A DNA stretch of 50,199 nt from Pseudomonadota bacterium (GTDB taxonomy: Bacteria > Pseudomonadota > Gammaproteobacteria > SURF-13): assembly GCA_027624315.1 (NCBI GenBank), contig JAQBXX010000007.1, positions 1-50,199 of the forward strand, given 5' to 3'. The translations under genes and the position numbers were made by a program. Under the pieces are notes generated by a model. That model saw nothing but the letters and a program-made list of their open reading frames with translations, had not been told where the DNA came from and did no database searches. Positions 1 to 36,273 of the stretch are shown here, piece by piece; position 1 is the stretch's first letter; every line of letters begins with the position of its first letter.

Positions 1-66
1 ACTCTACCCCCACCCTGTCCCGCCCCCTAAACAAGGGGCGGGGACGCAGCGGGAAGTGTAGTCTTA
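1..66 (+). repeat. Composite intergenic repeat, copy A (GC-hairpin half, cut by window edge)
   Basis: This matches four other sites in the window (5489-5614, 6550-6681, 16099-16230, 36147-36273). The shared core is CTCTACCCCCACCCTGTCCC, followed by a palindrome of the form CCCGCCCC-loop-GGGGCGGG and a tail ending in GTGTAGYCTTA. Only the GC-rich half is visible here. The perfect 15-16 bp hairpin that precedes this core in the other copies would lie upstream of the window. It ends 37 bases before thiG, so it probably sits in the thiG leader or between thiG and an upstream gene. Confidence 0.8.
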
Positions 67-103
67 CTTGCTGACTTATGATTAATTCTGCTGAGATACT
101 GAT

Positions 104-5442: not shown

Positions 5443-5488
5443 GCAAGCCGTATCCAAACTTGGTTTACTTATATGCCAGCAATTACAA

Positions 5489-5614
5489 CTACACCCTCCT
5501 ACACGTCCCCGCCCCTTATTCAGGGGGTGGGACAGGGTGGGGGTAGAGTAAACAGGGTGTTTACTCAGGAGACACCCATCAACAGTATATTCTTACTTCG
5601 TGTCTCCTGAGTAA
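5489..5614 (-). repeat. Composite intergenic repeat, copy B (reverse orientation, in bioB leader)
   Basis: On the plus strand the GC palindrome (5505-5533) and GTGGGGGTAGAGT core come first. A perfect 15-bp stem follows: TTACTCAGGAGACAC at 5561-5575 with GTGTCTCCTGAGTAA at 5600-5614, loop 24 bases. The stem ends 8 bases before the bioB ATG. GAGTAAAC and GTTTACTC (5547-5565 region) can form a second hairpin that shares bases with the main stem, so the two are mutually exclusive. Confidence 0.85.
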
Positions 5615-5622
5615 CAGCCCAC

Positions 5623-6552
5623 ATGCACAACAAAACAGACGCCGTTGAAGCACTGCTGAATCTGCCCTTCAACGACCTGCTCTACCGCGCGCAGTGCGTG
5701 CACCGCGAACACTTCGACGCCAACAGCGTGCAACTCTCCACGCTGCTGTCGATCAAGACCGGCGGCTGTCCGGAGGATTGCGGCTACTGTCCCCAGGCGG
5801 CGCGCTTTCACACCGGCGTGGAAAACGAGGACGTGCTGCCGCTGGCCACCGTGCTGGAGGCCGCGCGCGCGGCGCAGGCGAACGGCGCCACGCGCTTCTG
5901 CATGGGTGCCGCGTGGCGCGGCCCGAAAGAAAAAGACCTCGCGCCGGTGCTGGAGATGGTCAGGGCGGTGCGCGCGCTGGGGCTGGAGACCTGCGCCACG
6001 CTCGGCATGCTGCGCGCGGGGCAGGCCGAGCAGTTGCAGCAGGCGGGCCTCGATTACTACAACCACAATCTCGACACCGCGCCGGAGTTTTACGGCGCAA
6101 TCATTTCCACGCGCGATTATGAAGACCGCCTCGATACACTGGAGAAGGTACGCCACGCCGGCTTGCACGTCTGCTGCGGCGGCATCGTCGGCATGGGTGA
6201 GTCGCGCCGTGAACGCGCCGCGCTGATCGCGCAACTCGCCAGCCTCGACCCGCAGCCGGAGAGCGTGCCGATCAACAATCTGGTGCAGGTGGAAGGCACG
6301 CCGCTCTACGGCACGGAGGCACTCGACCCGCTCGAATTCGTGCGCACCATCGCCGCCGCGCGCATCACGCTGCCGCACAGCCGCATACGCCTGTCCGCCG
6401 GGCGCGAGCAGATGCCGGAGGCGGTACAGGCGCTGTGTTTTCTCGCCGGCGCCAATTCTATTTTCTACGGCGACAAGCTGCTCACCACCGGCAATCCCGA
6501 GACACAGCGCGACCGTGCGCTGCTTGAGAAACTGGGAATGTGTACGGCTTGA
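5623..6552 (+). CDS. bioB: Biotin synthase BioB
   Basis: 309 aa radical-SAM enzyme that inserts sulfur into dethiobiotin, the last step of biotin synthesis. The [4Fe-4S] cysteines C49, C53 and C56 are in [10 protein letters not shown]. The auxiliary [2Fe-2S] ligands C93, C124 and C184 are present at the same relative positions as in E. coli (shift of 4). GIVGMGES near 187 and RLSAGREQM near 256 are also conserved. The ATG at 5623 gives the normal start but lacks a Shine-Dalgarno sequence; a 15-bp hairpin ends 8 bases upstream and its right arm contains CTCCT. The stop codon TGA (6550-6552) is the first three bases of the hairpin of repeat copy C. It is first in the bioBFHCD operon. Confidence 0.98.
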
Positions 6553-6681
6553 ATCAGGCGACACCAAAGAAGAATGCACTGCTTATGGGGTGTCGCCTGA
6601 TTCAAAACCCTGTTAACTCTACCCCCACCCTGTCCCGCCCCCTAAACAAGGGGCGGGAACGTGGCGGAGAGTGTAGCCTTA
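6550..6681 (+). repeat. Composite intergenic repeat, copy C (between bioB and bioF)
   Basis: A perfect 16-bp stem, TGAATCAGGCGACACC (6550-6565) with GGTGTCGCCTGATTCA (6589-6604), begins on the bioB stop codon. The CTCTACCCCC core, the GC palindrome (about 6633-6658) and the GTGTAGCCTTA tail follow. The stem differs from copies B and D by GCG for GAG, matched by CGC for CTC in the other arm. Because bioF continues downstream, the stem could attenuate or protect the bioB message rather than end it. Confidence 0.88.
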
Positions 6682-6693
6682 AATAATGAGCCC

Positions 6694-7869
6694 ATGAGGA
6701 ATACAAACCTGCGCGCCGCACTCACGCGCCGCCGTGACACTCACCTCTACCGCACGCGGCGCGTCATTGAAAGCCCGCAAGGCCCGGAGGTCGTCATCGA
6801 CGGGCAACGCTATCTCAATTTTTGCAGCAACGATTATCTCGGCCTCGCCAACCATCCACAGGTGATCGAGGCCATGCAGCGCGGCGCGGCGCGTTACGGC
6901 GTGGGCAGCGGCGCGGCGCATTTGATCTGCGGACACAGCAGCGCGCACCATGCGCTCGAAAACGAACTCGCCGCCTTCACACAACGTCCGCGCGCGCTGT
7001 TATTTTCCACCGGCTACATGGCCAATCTCGGCGTGATGGGTGCACTCCTCGGCCACGGCGACACGGTGCTGCAAGACCGTCTCAATCACGCCTCGATCAT
7101 CGACGCGGCGCAGTTGTCCGGCGCGCGGCTGCAACGCTACCCGCACGGTGACGTGGCGGCGCTTGAAAAAAAACTCGCCGGCGGCAAGACCAAGACAGCA
7201 CTCATCGCCAGCGACGGCGTGTTCAGCATGGACGGCGACATCGCACCCGTGGCACAACTCGCGGCGTTGGCGCGCACATATAAAACCCTGCTCATGATTG
7301 ACGATGCGCACGGACTGGGCGTGCTCGGTACACACGGCGGCGGCACACTGGAGCATCTCGGCCTGGGTTTGGACGACGTGCCGGTGCTGATGGGCACGCT
7401 GGGCAAGGCCTTCGGTACCTTTGGCGCGTTCGTCGCGGGCAGCGAGGAACTCATCGAGACACTGATTCAGCAGGCGCGCAGCTATGTCTACACCACGGCA
7501 CTGCCGCCCGCGCTCGCCGAGGCGACGCGCGCCAGTCTCAAGCTGGTGCAAACCGAAGCTTGGCGGCGTGAGTGGCTACGTCAACTGATCGCGCGCTTCA
7601 CCCGCGGCGCCGCAGAGCTAAAGCTCCCGCTCATGCCGTCACCGACACCGATTCAGCCCTTACTCATCGGTGACAGCGCGCAGGCGCTTGCGCTGAGCGA
7701 AAAATTGTTCGCGCGCAACATCCTCGTGAACGCCATCCGGCCGCCGACCGTGCCGCAGGGACAGGCGCGGTTGCGCATCACGCTCTCGTGCGCGCACAGC
7801 GAGGCGCAGGTGGATCGCCTGCTGGCAACGTTGGCGGCGTGCCTGCCTGCCGCTCATGAACCTGTTTAG
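6694..7869 (+). CDS. bioF: 8-amino-7-oxononanoate synthase BioF
   Basis: 391 aa, PLP-dependent alpha-oxoamine synthase that condenses pimeloyl-ACP/CoA with L-alanine. The PLP lysine is K238 in [12 protein letters not shown]. Other family marks are [11 protein letters not shown] near 42, [10 protein letters not shown] near 71, DGVFSMDGD near 174 and [10 protein letters not shown] near 203. I start at ATG 6694. The in-frame GTG at 6661 would put the first codons inside repeat copy C, and the extra 11 residues are not family-like. No clear ribosome-binding site is seen. The gene overlaps bioH by 14 bases, which suggests translational coupling. Confidence 0.96.
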
Positions 7870-11838: not shown

Positions 11839-11860
11839 ATGGATTCCATCGTCTGAGCTA

Positions 11861-12913
11861 TCAGGCCGGCTCGATATTCGCCAAATGCCGCCCCACGGAC
11901 AGCCACGCACCCAGCAGGCCAAGTATGGCGCCTGCGGAGACCAGCAACAGTGTAAGCGTGAAACTCAGGCCGCTCAAACTGAAATCGCTTTGATAAAGCG
12001 CGGCGAGCCGCTGCACCGGCCCGTTCAGCAGCCTGAGCGCGAGACTCACCATAACCCAGGCGCACACGCCGCCCAGGGCGCCGTACCACATGCCGCTGTA
12101 TAAAAACGGACGCCGGATGAAGGCGTCGCTGGCGCCGATGAGTTTGCTGACCTCAATTTCATCGCTGCGGCCTTGCACCGCAAGCCGCAGCGTATTGCCC
12201 ACGATGAACAGAACCGCCGCCGCGAGCAACAGCGCAAGCAGTTGCACGGCGCGTTCGATCACGGCCATGATCGCGCGCAGACGCTTGAGCCACTGCTCGT
12301 CAAACTCGGCCAGATCCACCTCGGGCAGCGCGCGCACCTTTGCCAGCAACCGCCCCGAGTATTCCTGCGCCATACCATCATGTTCCGGCGCCAGATGCAG
12401 CACCAACACCGCAGGCAGCGGATTTTCATCGAGCGCATCAAGCGCCGCGCCAAGACCGGAGAGACGGCGGAATTCCTCCAGCGCCTCGGTACGCGAAATG
12501 GCGCTCACCCCGGTCAGCGCGGGCCACGCGCGCAAGCGCACCGCCAGCGTCCGCGCCGCCTCGTCGCTGACCTCGTGCTTGAGAAACAGCGTGATCTGGG
12601 CGCCGCCCTTCCATCCCGCGCTCACCTGCTGCGCATGCTCCAGCACCAGATACAGCGCCGTCGGCAGCGCGAGCGCAATCCCGATCACGGCAGCGGTCAT
12701 CAGTGTCGCCGCCGGTGCGCGCCACAACTGGCCGAGGCTGTAAGTAAACGCCTGCGCATGCTGTGCTATGTAGGCCCTGAGCGACAGTGAAGCAGCGCTG
12801 CGCCGGGCCGTGGGCGCGCGCGTGGCCGCTGCTCGCGTCACCACGGGAGCGGGGCCGGAAGTGCGGCTGCGCGGTGTCGCGCCACTGCGGCGGCGTTTGA
12901 AAAACGAGATCAT
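11861..12913 (-). CDS. ftsX: Cell-division ABC permease FtsX
   Basis: 350 aa. A basic cytoplasmic N-terminus (~50 residues) precedes TM1 (ATLMTAAVIGIALALPTALYL). An extracytoplasmic domain at ~105-215 (ITLFLKHEVSDEAARTLAVRL) follows, then three TM segments: LLALLLAAAVLFIVGNTLRL, YSGMWYGALGGVCAWVMVSLA and TLLLVSAGAILGLLGAWLSV. FtsX with FtsE links ATP hydrolysis at the septum to activation of peptidoglycan amidases via EnvC. Its ATG overlaps the ftsE stop (ATGA). The Ser/Arg/Ala-rich N-terminus is longer than in E. coli. Confidence 0.95.
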   Translation of the reverse strand: MISFFKRRRSGATPRSRTSGPAPVVTRAAATRAPTARRSAASLSLRAYIAQHAQAFTYSLGQLWRAPAATLMTAAVIGIALALPTALYLVLEHAQQVSAGWKGGAQITLFLKHEVSDEAARTLAVRLRAWPALTGVSAISRTEALEEFRRLSGLGAALDALDENPLPAVLVLHLAPEHDGMAQEYSGRLLAKVRALPEVDLAEFDEQWLKRLRAIMAVIERAVQLLALLLAAAVLFIVGNTLRLAVQGRSDEIEVSKLIGASDAFIRRPFLYSGMWYGALGGVCAWVMVSLALRLLNGPVQRLAALYQSDFSLSGLSFTLTLLLVSAGAILGLLGAWLSVGRHLANIEPA

Positions 12914-14707: not shown

Positions 14708-16102
14708 ATGATGCACAAGTATATCGCAGTCGGCCTGTGCCTGTGGGCCGCCGCATTCAGCATTTACGCGCAAGACACCCCGCCCGCCACCCACGAATAT
14801 CGCCTCAGCAACGGCCTCAAGCTCATCGTGCGGGAAGATCACCGCGCGCCGGTGGTGGTGTCGCAGGTCTGGTACAAGGTGGGTTCCAGTTACGAAGACA
14901 GTGGCACCACCGGTATCTCGCACGTGCTCGAACACATGATGTTCAAGGGTACACGCAAACACGGGCCGAACGAATTCTCTCGTATCATCGCGCAAAACGG
15001 CGGGCGCGAAAATGCCTTCACCGGGCGCGATTACACCGCCTATTTTCAGCAACTGGAAAAAGGCCGTCTCGCGGTGAGCTTTGAACTCGAGGCCGACCGC
15101 ATGCGCAACCTCCGGCTCAAGCAAGAAGAGTTCGCGAAGGAGGTCCGCGTGGTGATGGAGGAGCGCAGAATGCGCACCGACGACGACCCGGAAGCGCTGA
15201 CCGCCGAACAATTCACCGCGGTCGCCTTTCACAACAACCCCTACCGTATTCCGGTGATCGGCTGGATGGGCGACCTGGAAAATCTGCGCGTGACAGATCT
15301 TCAGGCCTGGTATAAAACCTGGTATGCGCCGAACAATGCGACGCTGGTGGTTGTGGGCGACGTGCAACCGGATGCGGTATTCAAACTTGCCGGGAAATAT
15401 TTCGGTGCGCTGAAACCCGCGCCACTCCCCACCCTCAAGCCACACATCGAAGCTGAACAGATGGGCACGCGCCGCATCACGGTGAAGGCTCCTGCGGAAT
15501 TGCCCTATCTCCTCATGGGCTATCCCGCACCGGTGCTGAAATCGTCAAGCGCCAGCGATTCCTGGGAACCGTATGCGCTGGAAATGCTGTCGGCGCTGCT
15601 CTCCGGCGGCGACAGCGCGCGGCTTGCCAGGCATCTGGTGCGCGGCCAGAAAATCGCGGCCAACGCCAGCGCCGGCTACAACCTCACTGCGCGCCTGCCC
15701 GACATGTTCATGATTGACGGCACGCCTGCCCAGGGGCGCACCATCGACGAACTGGAGCAGGCGCTGCGCGGCGAGATCAAGCGCCTGCAGGATGAGCCGG
15801 TGAGCGAGGCTGAGCTTGCGCGCATCAAGACCCAGGTGGTGGCGAATGAAATCTATCAGCGCGACTCCATCTTCGCGCAGGCGATGCAGATCGGCACGCT
15901 GGAAACCGTCGGCCTCGACTGGCGCCTGATGGACAGCTACGTGGAAAAGATCACTGCGGTGACGGCAGAGCAGGTGCAGCAGGTGGCGCGCAAATATCTC
16001 ATCGACGACCGCCTGACGGTCGCCGTGCTCGAGCCCTTGCCCATCGATCCCAACAAGCCGCGCGCCGCAGCGGCGGGCGCTGGAGGCCACAATGTCCGTT
16101 AA
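14708..16102 (+). CDS. Periplasmic M16-family zinc peptidase (catalytic subunit)
   Basis: 464 aa. An N-terminal signal peptide (MMHKYIAVGLCLWAAAFSIYAQD) indicates export to the periplasm. The inverted zinc motif HxxEH is H72-E75-H76 in SHVLEHMMFKGT, and the third ligand is expected at E152 in MEERRMRTDDDP. The GRENAFTGRDYTAYFQ segment that follows is typical of active M16B members. It is followed by a second M16 gene without the zinc motif, and such pairs usually act as a heterodimer on unfolded peptides. The stop codon TAA at 16100-16102 lies within the left arm of the hairpin of repeat copy D. Confidence 0.92.
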   Translation: MMHKYIAVGLCLWAAAFSIYAQDTPPATHEYRLSNGLKLIVREDHRAPVVVSQVWYKVGSSYEDSGTTGISHVLEHMMFKGTRKHGPNEFSRIIAQNGGRENAFTGRDYTAYFQQLEKGRLAVSFELEADRMRNLRLKQEEFAKEVRVVMEERRMRTDDDPEALTAEQFTAVAFHNNPYRIPVIGWMGDLENLRVTDLQAWYKTWYAPNNATLVVVGDVQPDAVFKLAGKYFGALKPAPLPTLKPHIEAEQMGTRRITVKAPAELPYLLMGYPAPVLKSSSASDSWEPYALEMLSALLSGGDSARLARHLVRGQKIAANASAGYNLTARLPDMFMIDGTPAQGRTIDELEQALRGEIKRLQDEPVSEAELARIKTQVVANEIYQRDSIFAQAMQIGTLETVGLDWRLMDSYVEKITAVTAEQVQQVARKYLIDDRLTVAVLEPLPIDPNKPRAAAAGAGGHNVR

Positions 16103-16230
16103 GCAGGAGACACCAAGTAAGGAAACATCGCTGTCGGGGTGTCTCCTGCTTAAAAACCCCGTTAACTCTACCCCCACCCTGTCCCGCCCCCTCAACAGGG
16201 GGCGGGGACGTGTACGATGGAGCAGCCTTA
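16099..16230 (+). repeat. Composite intergenic repeat, copy D (between the two M16 genes)
   Basis: The perfect 16-bp stem TTAAGCAGGAGACACC (16099-16114) with GGTGTCTCCTGCTTAA (16138-16153) contains the stop codon of the upstream gene. It is followed by GTTAACTCTACCCCC (from 16161), the palindrome GTCCCGCCCCC-TCAACA-GGGGGCGGGGAC and a tail AGCAGCCTTA ending at 16230. The downstream M16 gene starts 11 bases later. Confidence 0.88.
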
Positions 16231-16241
16231 ATAGTCAACTC

Positions 16242-17585
16242 ATGATTAAACATAGACTCCTGTTTGCCGTTCTCCTGTTGCTGTTCAATGCGACGGCATT
16301 CGCCGCGCCCGCGATTCAACACTGGGAGACAAAAAACGGCGCACGCGTGTACTTCGTGCCGGCGCCGGAATTGCCGATGGTGGACGTACGCGTTGCCTTT
16401 GACGCCGGCAGCGCGCGCGACGGCGACACGCCTGGGCTCGCCGCACTCACCAGCAATCTGCTGAGTGACGGCGCCGAAGTGCACACCGGCACCGGTGCGG
16501 GAGAACTCAACGCGGACGAGATCGCGGATCGCTTCGCCGGTCTCGGCGCACACTTCGGCGCCGGCGCTGGTCGCGACATGACCAGCGTGAGCCTGCGCAG
16601 TCTGAGCCGGCCCGATGTATTACAGCCCGCGCTCGACACCGCGGCCGCGCTGGTGCAACGGCCCAGCTTCCCCGCGACGGGATTTGAGCGCGAGCGCGAC
16701 CGCACCCGCGTTGCGTTGCGCGCGCAGGAACAGTCGCCGGGCGACATCGCCGGCAAGGCGTTCTACCAAGCCGTGTACGGCGCACACCCTTACGGCACCG
16801 AACCCGCAGGCACCGAGGCGAGCCTGAACAGGCTCACGCGCGACGACCTGGTCGCGTTTCATAAACGCTATTACGCTGGGCGCAATGCGATCATCGCCGT
16901 CGTGGGTGCGCTGTCTCGCAACGAGGCCGCAGCCGTCGCGGAAACCATCATCGGAGGCCTGCCCGCAGGTGCAGCGGCTACGGCACTGCCCAAGGTGGGC
17001 GATCTCGCTAGCGCGCAGATGATACAAATCAAACATCCCTCGGCGCAGACGCATGTGCTCCTGGGCCAGCCGGGTTTAAGCCGTATCGACCCCGATTATT
17101 TCCCGCTGCTGGTCGGCAATCACATCCTCGGCGGCAGCGGGCTGGTGTCACGCCTGACCGACGAGGTGCGTGAGAAGCGTGGCTTGTCGTACAGTGCCTA
17201 CAGTTATTTCCTGCCGCTGCGCGAACCGGGTCCGTTTACACTCGGCCTGCAAACGCGCAACGAACAGACCGGACAGGCGCTCAAGGTATTGCGCGACACC
17301 TTGCAGACGTTCACCGAGCACGGGCCGAGCGCGCAGGAACTCAAGGCAGCAAAACAGAATATTACCGGCGGATTTGCATTGCGCATCGACAGCAACAGCA
17401 AGCTGATCGAATACCTCGCACTGATCGGCTTTTATAATCTGCCGCTCGGCTTTCTCGACACCTACTCCAGACACGTGGAAAAGATCACGCTTGAGCAAGT
17501 CCGCGCCGCCTTCAGGCGGCGCATAAATCCGGAACAGATGGTGACGGTGGTGGTGGGTGGCGGCGCCGCTGCGTCACAAGACTAA
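16242..17585 (+). CDS. M16-family peptidase-like protein without zinc motif (partner subunit)
   Basis: 447 aa with signal peptide MIKHRLLFAVLLLLFNATAFAA. At the place of HxxEH it reads LAALTSNLLSDGA, so it cannot bind zinc. It keeps the C-terminal substrate-binding Arg/Tyr segment (SRLTDEVREKRGLSYSAYSYF near 300), the usual pattern for the non-catalytic subunit of an M16 pair. I start at ATG 16242. A longer frame from 16092 would read through repeat copy D and lose the signal peptide position. The 3' end overlaps rsmD by 29 bases. Confidence 0.9.
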   Translation: MIKHRLLFAVLLLLFNATAFAAPAIQHWETKNGARVYFVPAPELPMVDVRVAFDAGSARDGDTPGLAALTSNLLSDGAEVHTGTGAGELNADEIADRFAGLGAHFGAGAGRDMTSVSLRSLSRPDVLQPALDTAAALVQRPSFPATGFERERDRTRVALRAQEQSPGDIAGKAFYQAVYGAHPYGTEPAGTEASLNRLTRDDLVAFHKRYYAGRNAIIAVVGALSRNEAAAVAETIIGGLPAGAAATALPKVGDLASAQMIQIKHPSAQTHVLLGQPGLSRIDPDYFPLLVGNHILGGSGLVSRLTDEVREKRGLSYSAYSYFLPLREPGPFTLGLQTRNEQTGQALKVLRDTLQTFTEHGPSAQELKAAKQNITGGFALRIDSNSKLIEYLALIGFYNLPLGFLDTYSRHVEKITLEQVRAAFRRRINPEQMVTVVVGGGAAASQD

Positions 17586-21298: not shown

Positions 21299-21813
21299 GA
21301 CTGGAGTGCGGCTGCCCCGCCAGCTTTCCCGGCTGGCATCAGCAGGACATCGGCCTCGGCGGTGAACTGGTGCATGAGGTGCCGGCGCCGATGTTTCTGC
21401 ACATGCCCATCGGCTACGAACTGCGCGCGGAACGCCAGCGCCAGACGCTGGAGCGGCTCCACCTCCAGGAACGCTGGCCGGGACTGGTGCTGATTCGCAC
21501 AGGACTGCTGCGGGGAAAACTTCTGCGCCTGCTGGAACCGGCTATCTCGCCTGCGCATGGACTCACGTATCTTCCCGCACCGTTGCAGGTGCGCGGTTTT
21601 CTGCATCACGGCAGCATCGCGGACATTTCACGCAGCGTAAAACAGATGCAGAGCGAGCTCGTAAATCTGGGCCGCAGGCCGCTGGAATTGTACCTCAGCC
21701 ACCTCACCTGCCCGCACTGCGCATCCGAGCGCGGCGGCGATAAAATCCTGTTGCTGCGTCACTGGGTGGAGAGCCCGGCGCTACAGAAACGTATCGCGGC
21801 GCGACCCATTTGA
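21295..21813 (+). CDS. Hypothetical cytosolic protein with Cys pair, coupled to mini subunit-I gene
   Basis: 172 aa from ATG 21295, which overlaps the preceding stop (ATGA), so it is translationally coupled. There is no membrane segment. Cysteines are CGCP at residues 5-8 and CPHC near 142 followed by ASERGGDKILLLRHW, a possible metal or redox site. The rest is Leu/Arg-rich (RLLEPAISPAHGLTYLPAPL). I do not recognise the family. Its coupling to a haem-type membrane protein makes an accessory or assembly role plausible. Confidence 0.65.
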   Translation: MRLECGCPASFPGWHQQDIGLGGELVHEVPAPMFLHMPIGYELRAERQRQTLERLHLQERWPGLVLIRTGLLRGKLLRLLEPAISPAHGLTYLPAPLQVRGFLHHGSIADISRSVKQMQSELVNLGRRPLELYLSHLTCPHCASERGGDKILLLRHWVESPALQKRIAARPI

Positions 21814-21817
21814 TTTC

Positions 21818-21945
21818 GCACCGCGCGATATAAAACCGCGCGGGCGACCAAAGGGGGAGAGCGTAGCGAGGGGGCCCTGCACTTCTCCCTTTTGGAAACC
21901 CCAAGGCTTTGAGCCCGCAGCAAACTGCGGGGTATGAATTATAAA
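21818..21945 (+). repeat. Dispersed intergenic repeat, copy 1 (CTTTGGAAACCCCAAGGCTTTGA type)
   Basis: It shares with 28991-29195 the left block CCGCGCGGGCGACCAAAGGGG and the right block CTGCACTTCTCCC-TTTGGAAACC-CCAAGGCTTTGA, then CCGCAGC-A-CTGCGGG and an AT-rich end. The middle is shorter here by about 80 bases. It sits exactly in the convergent gap between the 172-aa protein and the FixH-like lipoprotein. Its reverse strand gives a spurious reading frame with KALGFPKGRSA, which is not a gene. Confidence 0.8.
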
Positions 21946-28990: not shown

Positions 28991-29195
28991 ATCAATTTGA
29001 TTTCACACTGCGCGGCATGAACCCGCGCGGGCGACCAAAGGGGGCGAGATGTGCAACATCGAGCGGGCGGACATGGATGTTCGCCCTGGACTTGTACGCG
29101 AAGCAGGATGCGCAAGCGTACAAGGCTGCACTTCTCCCCTTTGGAAACCCCAAGGCTTTGAACCCGCAGCGAGCTGCGGGATATAAATTAATCAC
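28991..29195 (+). repeat. Dispersed intergenic repeat, copy 2 (longer form)
   Basis: Same outer blocks and orientation as 21818-21945. An extra ~80 bases contain GCGGACATGGATGTTCGCC, a near-palindrome around CATGGATG, and a CTTGTACGC...GCGTACAAG inverted pair. The reverse strand makes an open frame of 67 codons with KALGFPKGRSAALYACAS and HLAPFGRPRG. Such frames recur with this repeat in many genomes and are not genes. It splits the minus-strand series between the CcoS-like and cytochrome genes. Confidence 0.82.
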
Positions 29196-36075: not shown

Positions 36076-36146
36076 CGATGTCTACCGCAGAAAATAACTT
36101 GAGTTAACTTGTAAAGATACTGATTGAACCCAACAAAGAAAACCAC

Positions 36147-36273
36147 GCTTGCCGCCACATCCCCGCCCCCTGTTTAGGGGGCGGGACAGGGTGGGGGTAG
36201 AGTAAACAGGGTGTTTACTCAGGAGTCACACCACTAAAGTAATGTAGCCTTACATTAGTGACTCCTGAGTAAA
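36147..36273 (-). repeat. Composite intergenic repeat, copy E (reverse orientation)
   Basis: The GC palindrome ATCCCCGCCCCC-TGTTTA-GGGGGCGGGA lies at about 36159-36186, and the GTGGGGGTAGAGT core next. Then comes a perfect 16-bp stem, TTTACTCAGGAGTCAC (36214-36229) with GTGACTCCTGAGTAAA (36258-36273). Compared with copy B, GAGAC has become GAGTC and the other arm has changed to match (GACTC for GTCTC). The loop contains GTAAGGCTACATTAC, which can also fold. On the minus strand it lies downstream of the cytochrome c4 gene. Confidence 0.88.

Follow-up and report, generated by a model that had tools for sequence, protein, structure and literature searches.

The intergenic repeat that occurs five times in the window analysed here (the whole stretch of 50,199 bp) appears to represent an undescribed family of gene-less MITEs of about 150 bp, and this part of our interpretation is well supported by sequence comparison. 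The explanation as a whole, namely a non-autonomous MITE family in which the two arms of a terminal hairpin are kept matched by DNA template switching, we consider probable, though with considerable reserve. While MITEs as a class are already known, a family with a self-matching terminal hairpin and a triplex-type core appears to be undescribed. Presumably, the element relied for its movement on a cut-and-paste (DDE) transposase acting in trans, which would since have been lost from the genome under study, and based on the TA target, the IS630/Tc1-mariner group would be the obvious candidate for its source. Short-range template switching during replication would then recopy one arm from the other, so that the arms stay matched. 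More speculatively, a triplex or G-quadruplex formed by the core might stall the polymerase and thus lead to frequent switches between the adjacent arms.

The window represents one whole contig (C6) of a gammaproteobacterial assembly of 1.43 Mb in 53 contigs (G000). A search of this assembly for the core CTCTACCCCCACCCTGTCCC with up to three mismatches resulted in 58 matches and in none for a backwards control pattern; this number is a lower bound, since contigs break inside copies (C4:7, C6:2 in the window itself, C14:15, C48:40, and the ends of C25, C36, and C45). Among six genomes of one family (same order), the element was present in five, and a slightly different pattern revealed 56 copies in G000, 60 in the sister genome G002 (MAG JAURVQ01), 41 in G004, 5 in G001, and 2 in G003; the search of related genomes advised in the original prediction has thus yielded copies in four relatives. 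In the wider class (369 genomes), the element is rare and was found outside the family only in G027, with a single copy whose arms are close to those of the family, and in G210, G321, and G362, which display the same order of parts, nearly the same core, and TTACT/AGTAA-like ends with unrelated arm sequences. The long stem is kept in only two of 12 distant copies in G321, so the hairpin is not kept everywhere. Plasmid, phage, and viral contig records revealed no match to the element, comparison of the window with Rfam covariance models at gathering score resulted in no hits, and no description of the repeat was found in the open-access literature, in which the exact core sequence matched solely an unrelated immunology paper.

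In regard to the age of the copies, the closest pairs share up to 99% identity in G004 (some 98–99%), 97% in G002, and no more than 92% in G000. In addition, variants that share one internal insert are present at several sites. The near-identical copies in G004 and these shared-insert variants indicate that the element spread as a unit. Together with the lower identity in G000, they suggest that the family spread recently in the relatives and is probably quiet in G000.

Table 1. Coordinates of the element copies and related features; positions refer to the window unless a contig of G000 is given.
Feature	Position	Strand	Remarks
Copy 4 (element noted first)	16100..16248	+	Whole element from left TA to right TA, 149 bp
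Copy 4, hairpin 1, 5' arm	16099..16114	+	TTAAGCAGGAGACACC; outer half of left terminal inverted repeat
Copy 4, hairpin 1, 3' arm	16138..16153	+	GGTGTCTCCTGCTTAA; G002 orthologue has ..CCTGAGTAA
Copy 4, core capable of triplex/G-quadruplex	16171..16206	+	CCCCCACCC-TGT-CCCGCCCCC-loop-GGGGGCGGG; G-rich on minus strand
Copy 4, right terminal inverted repeat	16220..16248	+	Includes ATG at 16242
Copy 3	6551..6700	+	Arms 6549-6565 / 6589-6605; GA on both sides (left GA-ATCAGG, right GAG-GA)
Copy 2	5466..5614	-	Arms 5596-5614 / 5556-5575
Copy 5	36118..36271	-	Arms 36258-36273 / 36214-36229
Copy 1	1..84	+	Cut by contig start; reduced to the core, the GC palindrome, and the right terminal repeat
Element-free site	11846..11867	-	Orthologous G002 site holds copy L145
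Four Y1 (RAYT-type) genes (L059, L060, L061, L062)	G000 C38, C41, C28, C3		No element copies within 1.5 kb on each side

Alignment of 52 and later of 144 copies led to a roughly 150-bp consensus, TTACTCAGGAGTCACAAAGTAAGGCTACA..loop..GTGACTCCTGAGTAA-AAACCCTGTTTA-CTCTACCCCCACCCTGTCCCGCCCCC-TAAACA-GGGGGCGGGGACG-TAGCGGGAA-GTGTAGTCTTACTTACTGACTTATGAGTAA, which begins with a TA at the base of the stem and ends with another TA about 149–154 bp further. Its last 29 bases are the inverse of the first 29, resulting in imperfect terminal inverted repeats of about 29 bp, with TTACTCAGGAGTCACAAAGTAAGGCTACA as the left end and the inverse of TTACTCATAAGTCAGTAAGTAAGACTACA as the right end (the inverted form is also given as TTACTCATAAGTCAGTAAGTAAGACTACAC), and one degenerate pattern, TTACTNANNNGNNANNNAGTAAGNCNACAC, detects both ends, the right ones in the orientation opposite to the left ones. 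In addition, the outer 15–16 bp of the left end recur in inverse form further inside, so that this terminus forms a hairpin (hairpin 1). The ends of copy 4 were defined from the 144-copy alignment and from the empty sites of other copies (Table 1). All five copies proposed for the window in the original prediction were recovered in place, but the true element is longer: the right boundary had been set about 20 bases short of the true right end, the tail repeats the left end in inverted form, and the described AAGTAAG loop and GTGTAGCCTTA tail, though present, are the inner halves of the two terminal inverted repeats. In copy 4, the ATG inside the right terminal repeat is the probable start codon of the downstream gene for an M16 peptidase, and a reading frame (16092-16248) crosses the entire copy in frame with this gene. 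Copy 3 harbors an ATG at the same place (..CCCATGAGGA).

Comparison of the flanks of the G000 copies with about 1 Mb of G002 showed that many of the sites are empty in the sister genome. The ends could be delimited from the cleanest of these pairs. The empty site GGTGATAGCATTA (TGA-TA-GCATTA) corresponds to the filled site GGTGA-TA-CTCAGG...ATCAG-TA-GCATTA (L035/L150), and AAACATAACCTTT (AAACA-TA-ACCTTT) corresponds to AAACA-TA-CTTGAGG...TTCG-TA-ACCTTT (L039/L239), while L051/L149 forms a further clean filled/empty pair with TA as the target. For L108/L032 and L018/L244, CA and TC, respectively, were found in the empty site and flanking the element on both sides. Among 140 copies, TA was the end dinucleotide in 92 cases on the left and in 105 on the right, and the left and right dinucleotides agreed in 83 copies compared to 70.7 after permutation (0 of 5000). 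Copies with a non-TA left end carried the same dinucleotide at the right in 7 of 48 cases, compared to 2.2 (p 0.0018). Overall, the target comprises 2 bp and is duplicated, with TA preferred and CA, TC, and GA also seen, apart from sites with unlike ends (CA left and TA right in L040 and L050), so that the duplication is not seen everywhere. These filled and empty sites with their duplicated 2-bp target classify the repeat as a MITE and not as a REP/RAYT element.

Neither a search for the element ends in six carrier genomes nor a two-end search in the 369 class genomes identified an autonomous transposon with these ends. An IS630-type gene (PF13358) is absent from four of five family genomes, and the sole PF13358 gene, located in G004, was rejected as a partner because its ends do not match. 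The combination of a strict TA target and an IS630-type transposase with the same ends, as for an IS630/Tc1-mariner derivative, was not found.

Analysis of hairpin 1 in 156 copies from six genomes resulted in a mean stem score of 14.6 compared to 5.6 when the same stretch was shuffled. A score of at least 11 was reached by 130 of the 156 copies, but by no shuffle and only two flanks. The perfect pairing described initially therefore stands only in part: the stems are not due to chance, but all 12 in-element positions are paired in 81 of 140 copies only, and some copies have lost the 5' arm. Among the 126 copies in register, whose arms depart from the consensus at 11.9% and 10.4% of sites, 3.6% of the cells of the 12 in-element pairs are unpaired, compared to 20.7% expected for independent arms. 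Of the 402 cells in which the left arm is off consensus, 190 have a complementary base in the 3' arm, while permuted 3' arms gave 39 (at most 59). Pairing dropped from 0.865 in register to 0.17–0.29 when the partner was slid by 1–3 positions. Two-sided changes were identified at all 16 pairs, with 43 further pair types, and the effect is present in G000, G002, and G004, each taken alone. The right terminal repeat is of the same origin but takes no part in the hairpin, and its agreement with the left arm is weak (63 of 299 cells vs. 45 expected). The matched arm changes first noticed in the window are thus a genome-wide feature of the family, and the result named in the original prediction as refuting it, copies across the genome that lack covariation, was not obtained. 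In single copies, the stem appears to reach into the host flank, which statistically is confined to 3–4 bases at the terminus.

Orthologous copies in G000 and G002 displayed several such changes at one and the same site. Copy 4 (L010) and its G002 counterpart L145 have the unusual 5' arm TTAAGCAGG in common, while the 3' arm is the family-typical, mispaired CCTGAGTAA in L145 and CCTGCTTAA in L010, so that two adjacent bases (AG->CT in the 3' arm) restore pairing. For L047/L109, 8 nt were lost from the 5' arm and the 3' arm matches the new junction, former flank included, and for L058/L138, the two copies differ at both members of several pairs, and each stem is perfect. These three cases would be compatible with single multi-base events, the direction of which is deduced from the consensus and not from a rooted tree. 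The loop of copy 5 has 28 nt compared to 5 nt in its G002 orthologue, with intact arms, and several other orthologous stems revealed no change. At L041/L134 and L079/L260, different variants were found at the same site; here, ectopic conversion between copies may contribute, which could also mimic part of the pattern. Template switching is known to cause multi-base compensatory changes and has been described for RNA genes (PMC8794818). Based on the multi-base block changes at orthologous sites and the lack of a wobble bias among the mismatches (11 G·T vs. 13 A·C, i.e., small numbers), arm-to-arm copying in DNA is favoured as the best, though not the only, reading of the covariation. The original prediction had left the choice between a maintained structure and arm-to-arm copying, and our data lean to the latter.

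On the minus strand, the core reads C9-loop-G9-ACA-G9, which is the geometry of the E. coli BoxC/PIT/TM_ECO intrastrand triplex. When each stem was permitted one departure and the first loop 3–8 nt, the geometry C9 - N3-6 - G9 - N3 - G9 was detected in 134 of 144 copies, and a G-quadruplex motif formed by the same G runs was detected in 140 of 144. Judged by these motifs, the core could fold as an intrastrand triplex or a G-quadruplex. PIT elements are reported to block DNA polymerase in vitro and have no known effect in vivo (PMC4666352). Apart from the core geometry, BoxC/PIT/TM_ECO (PMC4666352) and our element share a GTCCC..GGGAC foot, but they differ in sequence (CCCCCACCCTGTCCCGCCCCC in our element vs. 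CCCTCACCCTAACCCTCTCCC), and next to the motif, the E. coli BoxC loci inspected lack a comparable left hairpin and comparable terminal repeats. As stated originally, a named family that combines the two modules was not found, though the second module alone does match the BoxC/PIT (TM_ECO) geometry.

Changing stems that remain perfect are usually taken as proof of a functional RNA. For hairpin 1, this would imply that it is transcribed with its neighbours, that the stability of the mRNA is raised or lowered by the stem, as has been suggested for ERIC, and that selection on the RNA keeps the stem by stepwise compensation, which we regard as unlikely. The strong covariation of the arms would be explained in this way, and both strands fold stably. 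Furthermore, the copies are located tightly between genes (medians of 22 and 5 bp to the adjacent ORFs), and downstream genes are slightly more often oriented like the element (75 of 121). However, G·T is not favoured over A·C among the mismatches, so that neither strand reveals the expected wobble tolerance, orthologues differ by blocks of several bases, the orientation to neighbouring genes is mixed (44/31/30/16), and the window lacks any Rfam match. The same signal appears here to arise from DNA copying, as suggested by the missing wobble bias and the block changes that restore pairing, so that covariation alone is unsafe evidence for RNA function.

We attach a similarly low probability to the possibility that the transposase or a host factor recognises the left end by its shape, a DNA hairpin or cruciform, rather than by its sequence, and that the stem is maintained for this reason, in which case only paired elements would move and the copies would be recent movers. 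In line with this, the arms vary widely in otherwise intact copies, with 29 distinct perfect arms among them, while the blocks TTACT (outer) and AGTAAG (inner) remain constant, and the same layout with unrelated arms was found in G210, G321, and G362. This explanation leaves the paired changes after insertion at orthologous sites (L058/L138 and L010/L145) unexplained, however, and with at most 92% identity, even the closest copies in G000 would be old copies that nevertheless have perfect stems. Equally doubtful is a coupled system composed of a replication-stalling core and a re-templated terminal hairpin, in which the left end would drift and even absorb host flank, yet stay perfect, and in which the transposase would read the hairpin.

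Far less plausible is that the apparent covariation merely reflects common descent within a few subfamilies that differ in their stems. Such subfamilies do exist (AGTCAC, AGACAC, and AAGAAAC stems), but when every 3' arm was exchanged for one drawn from the five copies closest in core and tail, only 69 complementary cells (at most 86 in 2000 trials) were obtained compared to the 190 observed, and paired changes also separate orthologous copies at one site. Least credible of all is a REP/BIME or REPIN moved by a RAYT (Y1) transposase, to which the element had originally been likened and with which it shares dispersed intergenic palindromes in about 60 copies and a genome with RAYT-type genes (PMC2817692, PMC3116915), since none of the four Y1 genes that match NCBIfam REP_Tyr_transpos (one above cut-off) has an element copy within 1.5 kb, although REPs invariably flank their rayt genes (PMC2817692), and since the element has terminal inverted repeats and a 2-bp target duplication and lacks a GT(A/G)G head directly before a perfect GC-rich palindrome, CTAC/GTAG adjoining the C-rich third strand instead.

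Compared to known systems, the MITE family proposed here resembles the bacterial MITEs Correia/NEMIS, ERIC (RU-1), and RUP (reviewed in PMC2229807), which are likewise gene-less and intergenic, about 100–200 bp in size, and present in tens of copies, and which also display terminal inverted repeats, TA ends, target duplication, and stable stem-loops. No shared sequence was identified with these families, and the GC-rich triplex core sets the present element apart, as does the asymmetric terminal hairpin with copy-specific arms, of which no description was found for them. QMITE2 of Coxiella (PMC5896051) is a gammaproteobacterial MITE of 150–190 bp with a palindrome module as well, but according to its description, it differs by variable direct repeats of 7–11 nt compared to 2 bp here and by a GTAG REP module in place of the triplex core. 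In regard to the arms, template switching and quasi-palindrome correction (PMC8794818, PMC7202029) also match two inverted arms at once by multi-base changes. While these processes are known from rRNA genes and reporter loci, they would, if our reading is right, act here on dozens of dispersed copies at the terminus of an element. The family is thus a natural case set for how perfect hairpins are kept, and its dozens of independent loci with orthologues in a sister genome offer material to measure single-step compensatory change.

Some copies carried additional sequence within the core. An insert of about 80 bases with three palindromes (TTTTGCGC..GCGCAAAAGTCCAGGGTGCACATCCCTGTGCACCCGTTCGGCAGCTTCGCTGCC) was identified in L153, L154, L155, and L158 of G004 and in L165 of G001, and based on its presence at several sites, it seems to spread as cargo. 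A shorter insert of about 22 bases like CCCGTTCAAGCCGGGGGCAGGCT, located between CCCCCACCC and CTGTCCC, is common to two species (L162 and L163 in G002 and L168 in G000, C2:1-2100). The window also harbors a second repeat family at 21808-21941 and 28995-29190, which displays several short palindromes and is flanked by ATTTGATTTC..GCGCGGGCGACCAAAGGGGG and CTGCACTTCTCCC.TTTGGAAACCCCAAGGCTTTGA.CCCGCAGC. Its copy at 28995-29190 is longer by about 60 bases, which contain additional perfect hairpins (e.g., CTTGTACGC/GCGTACAAG), and it is this extra part that the core insert of about 80 bases resembles.
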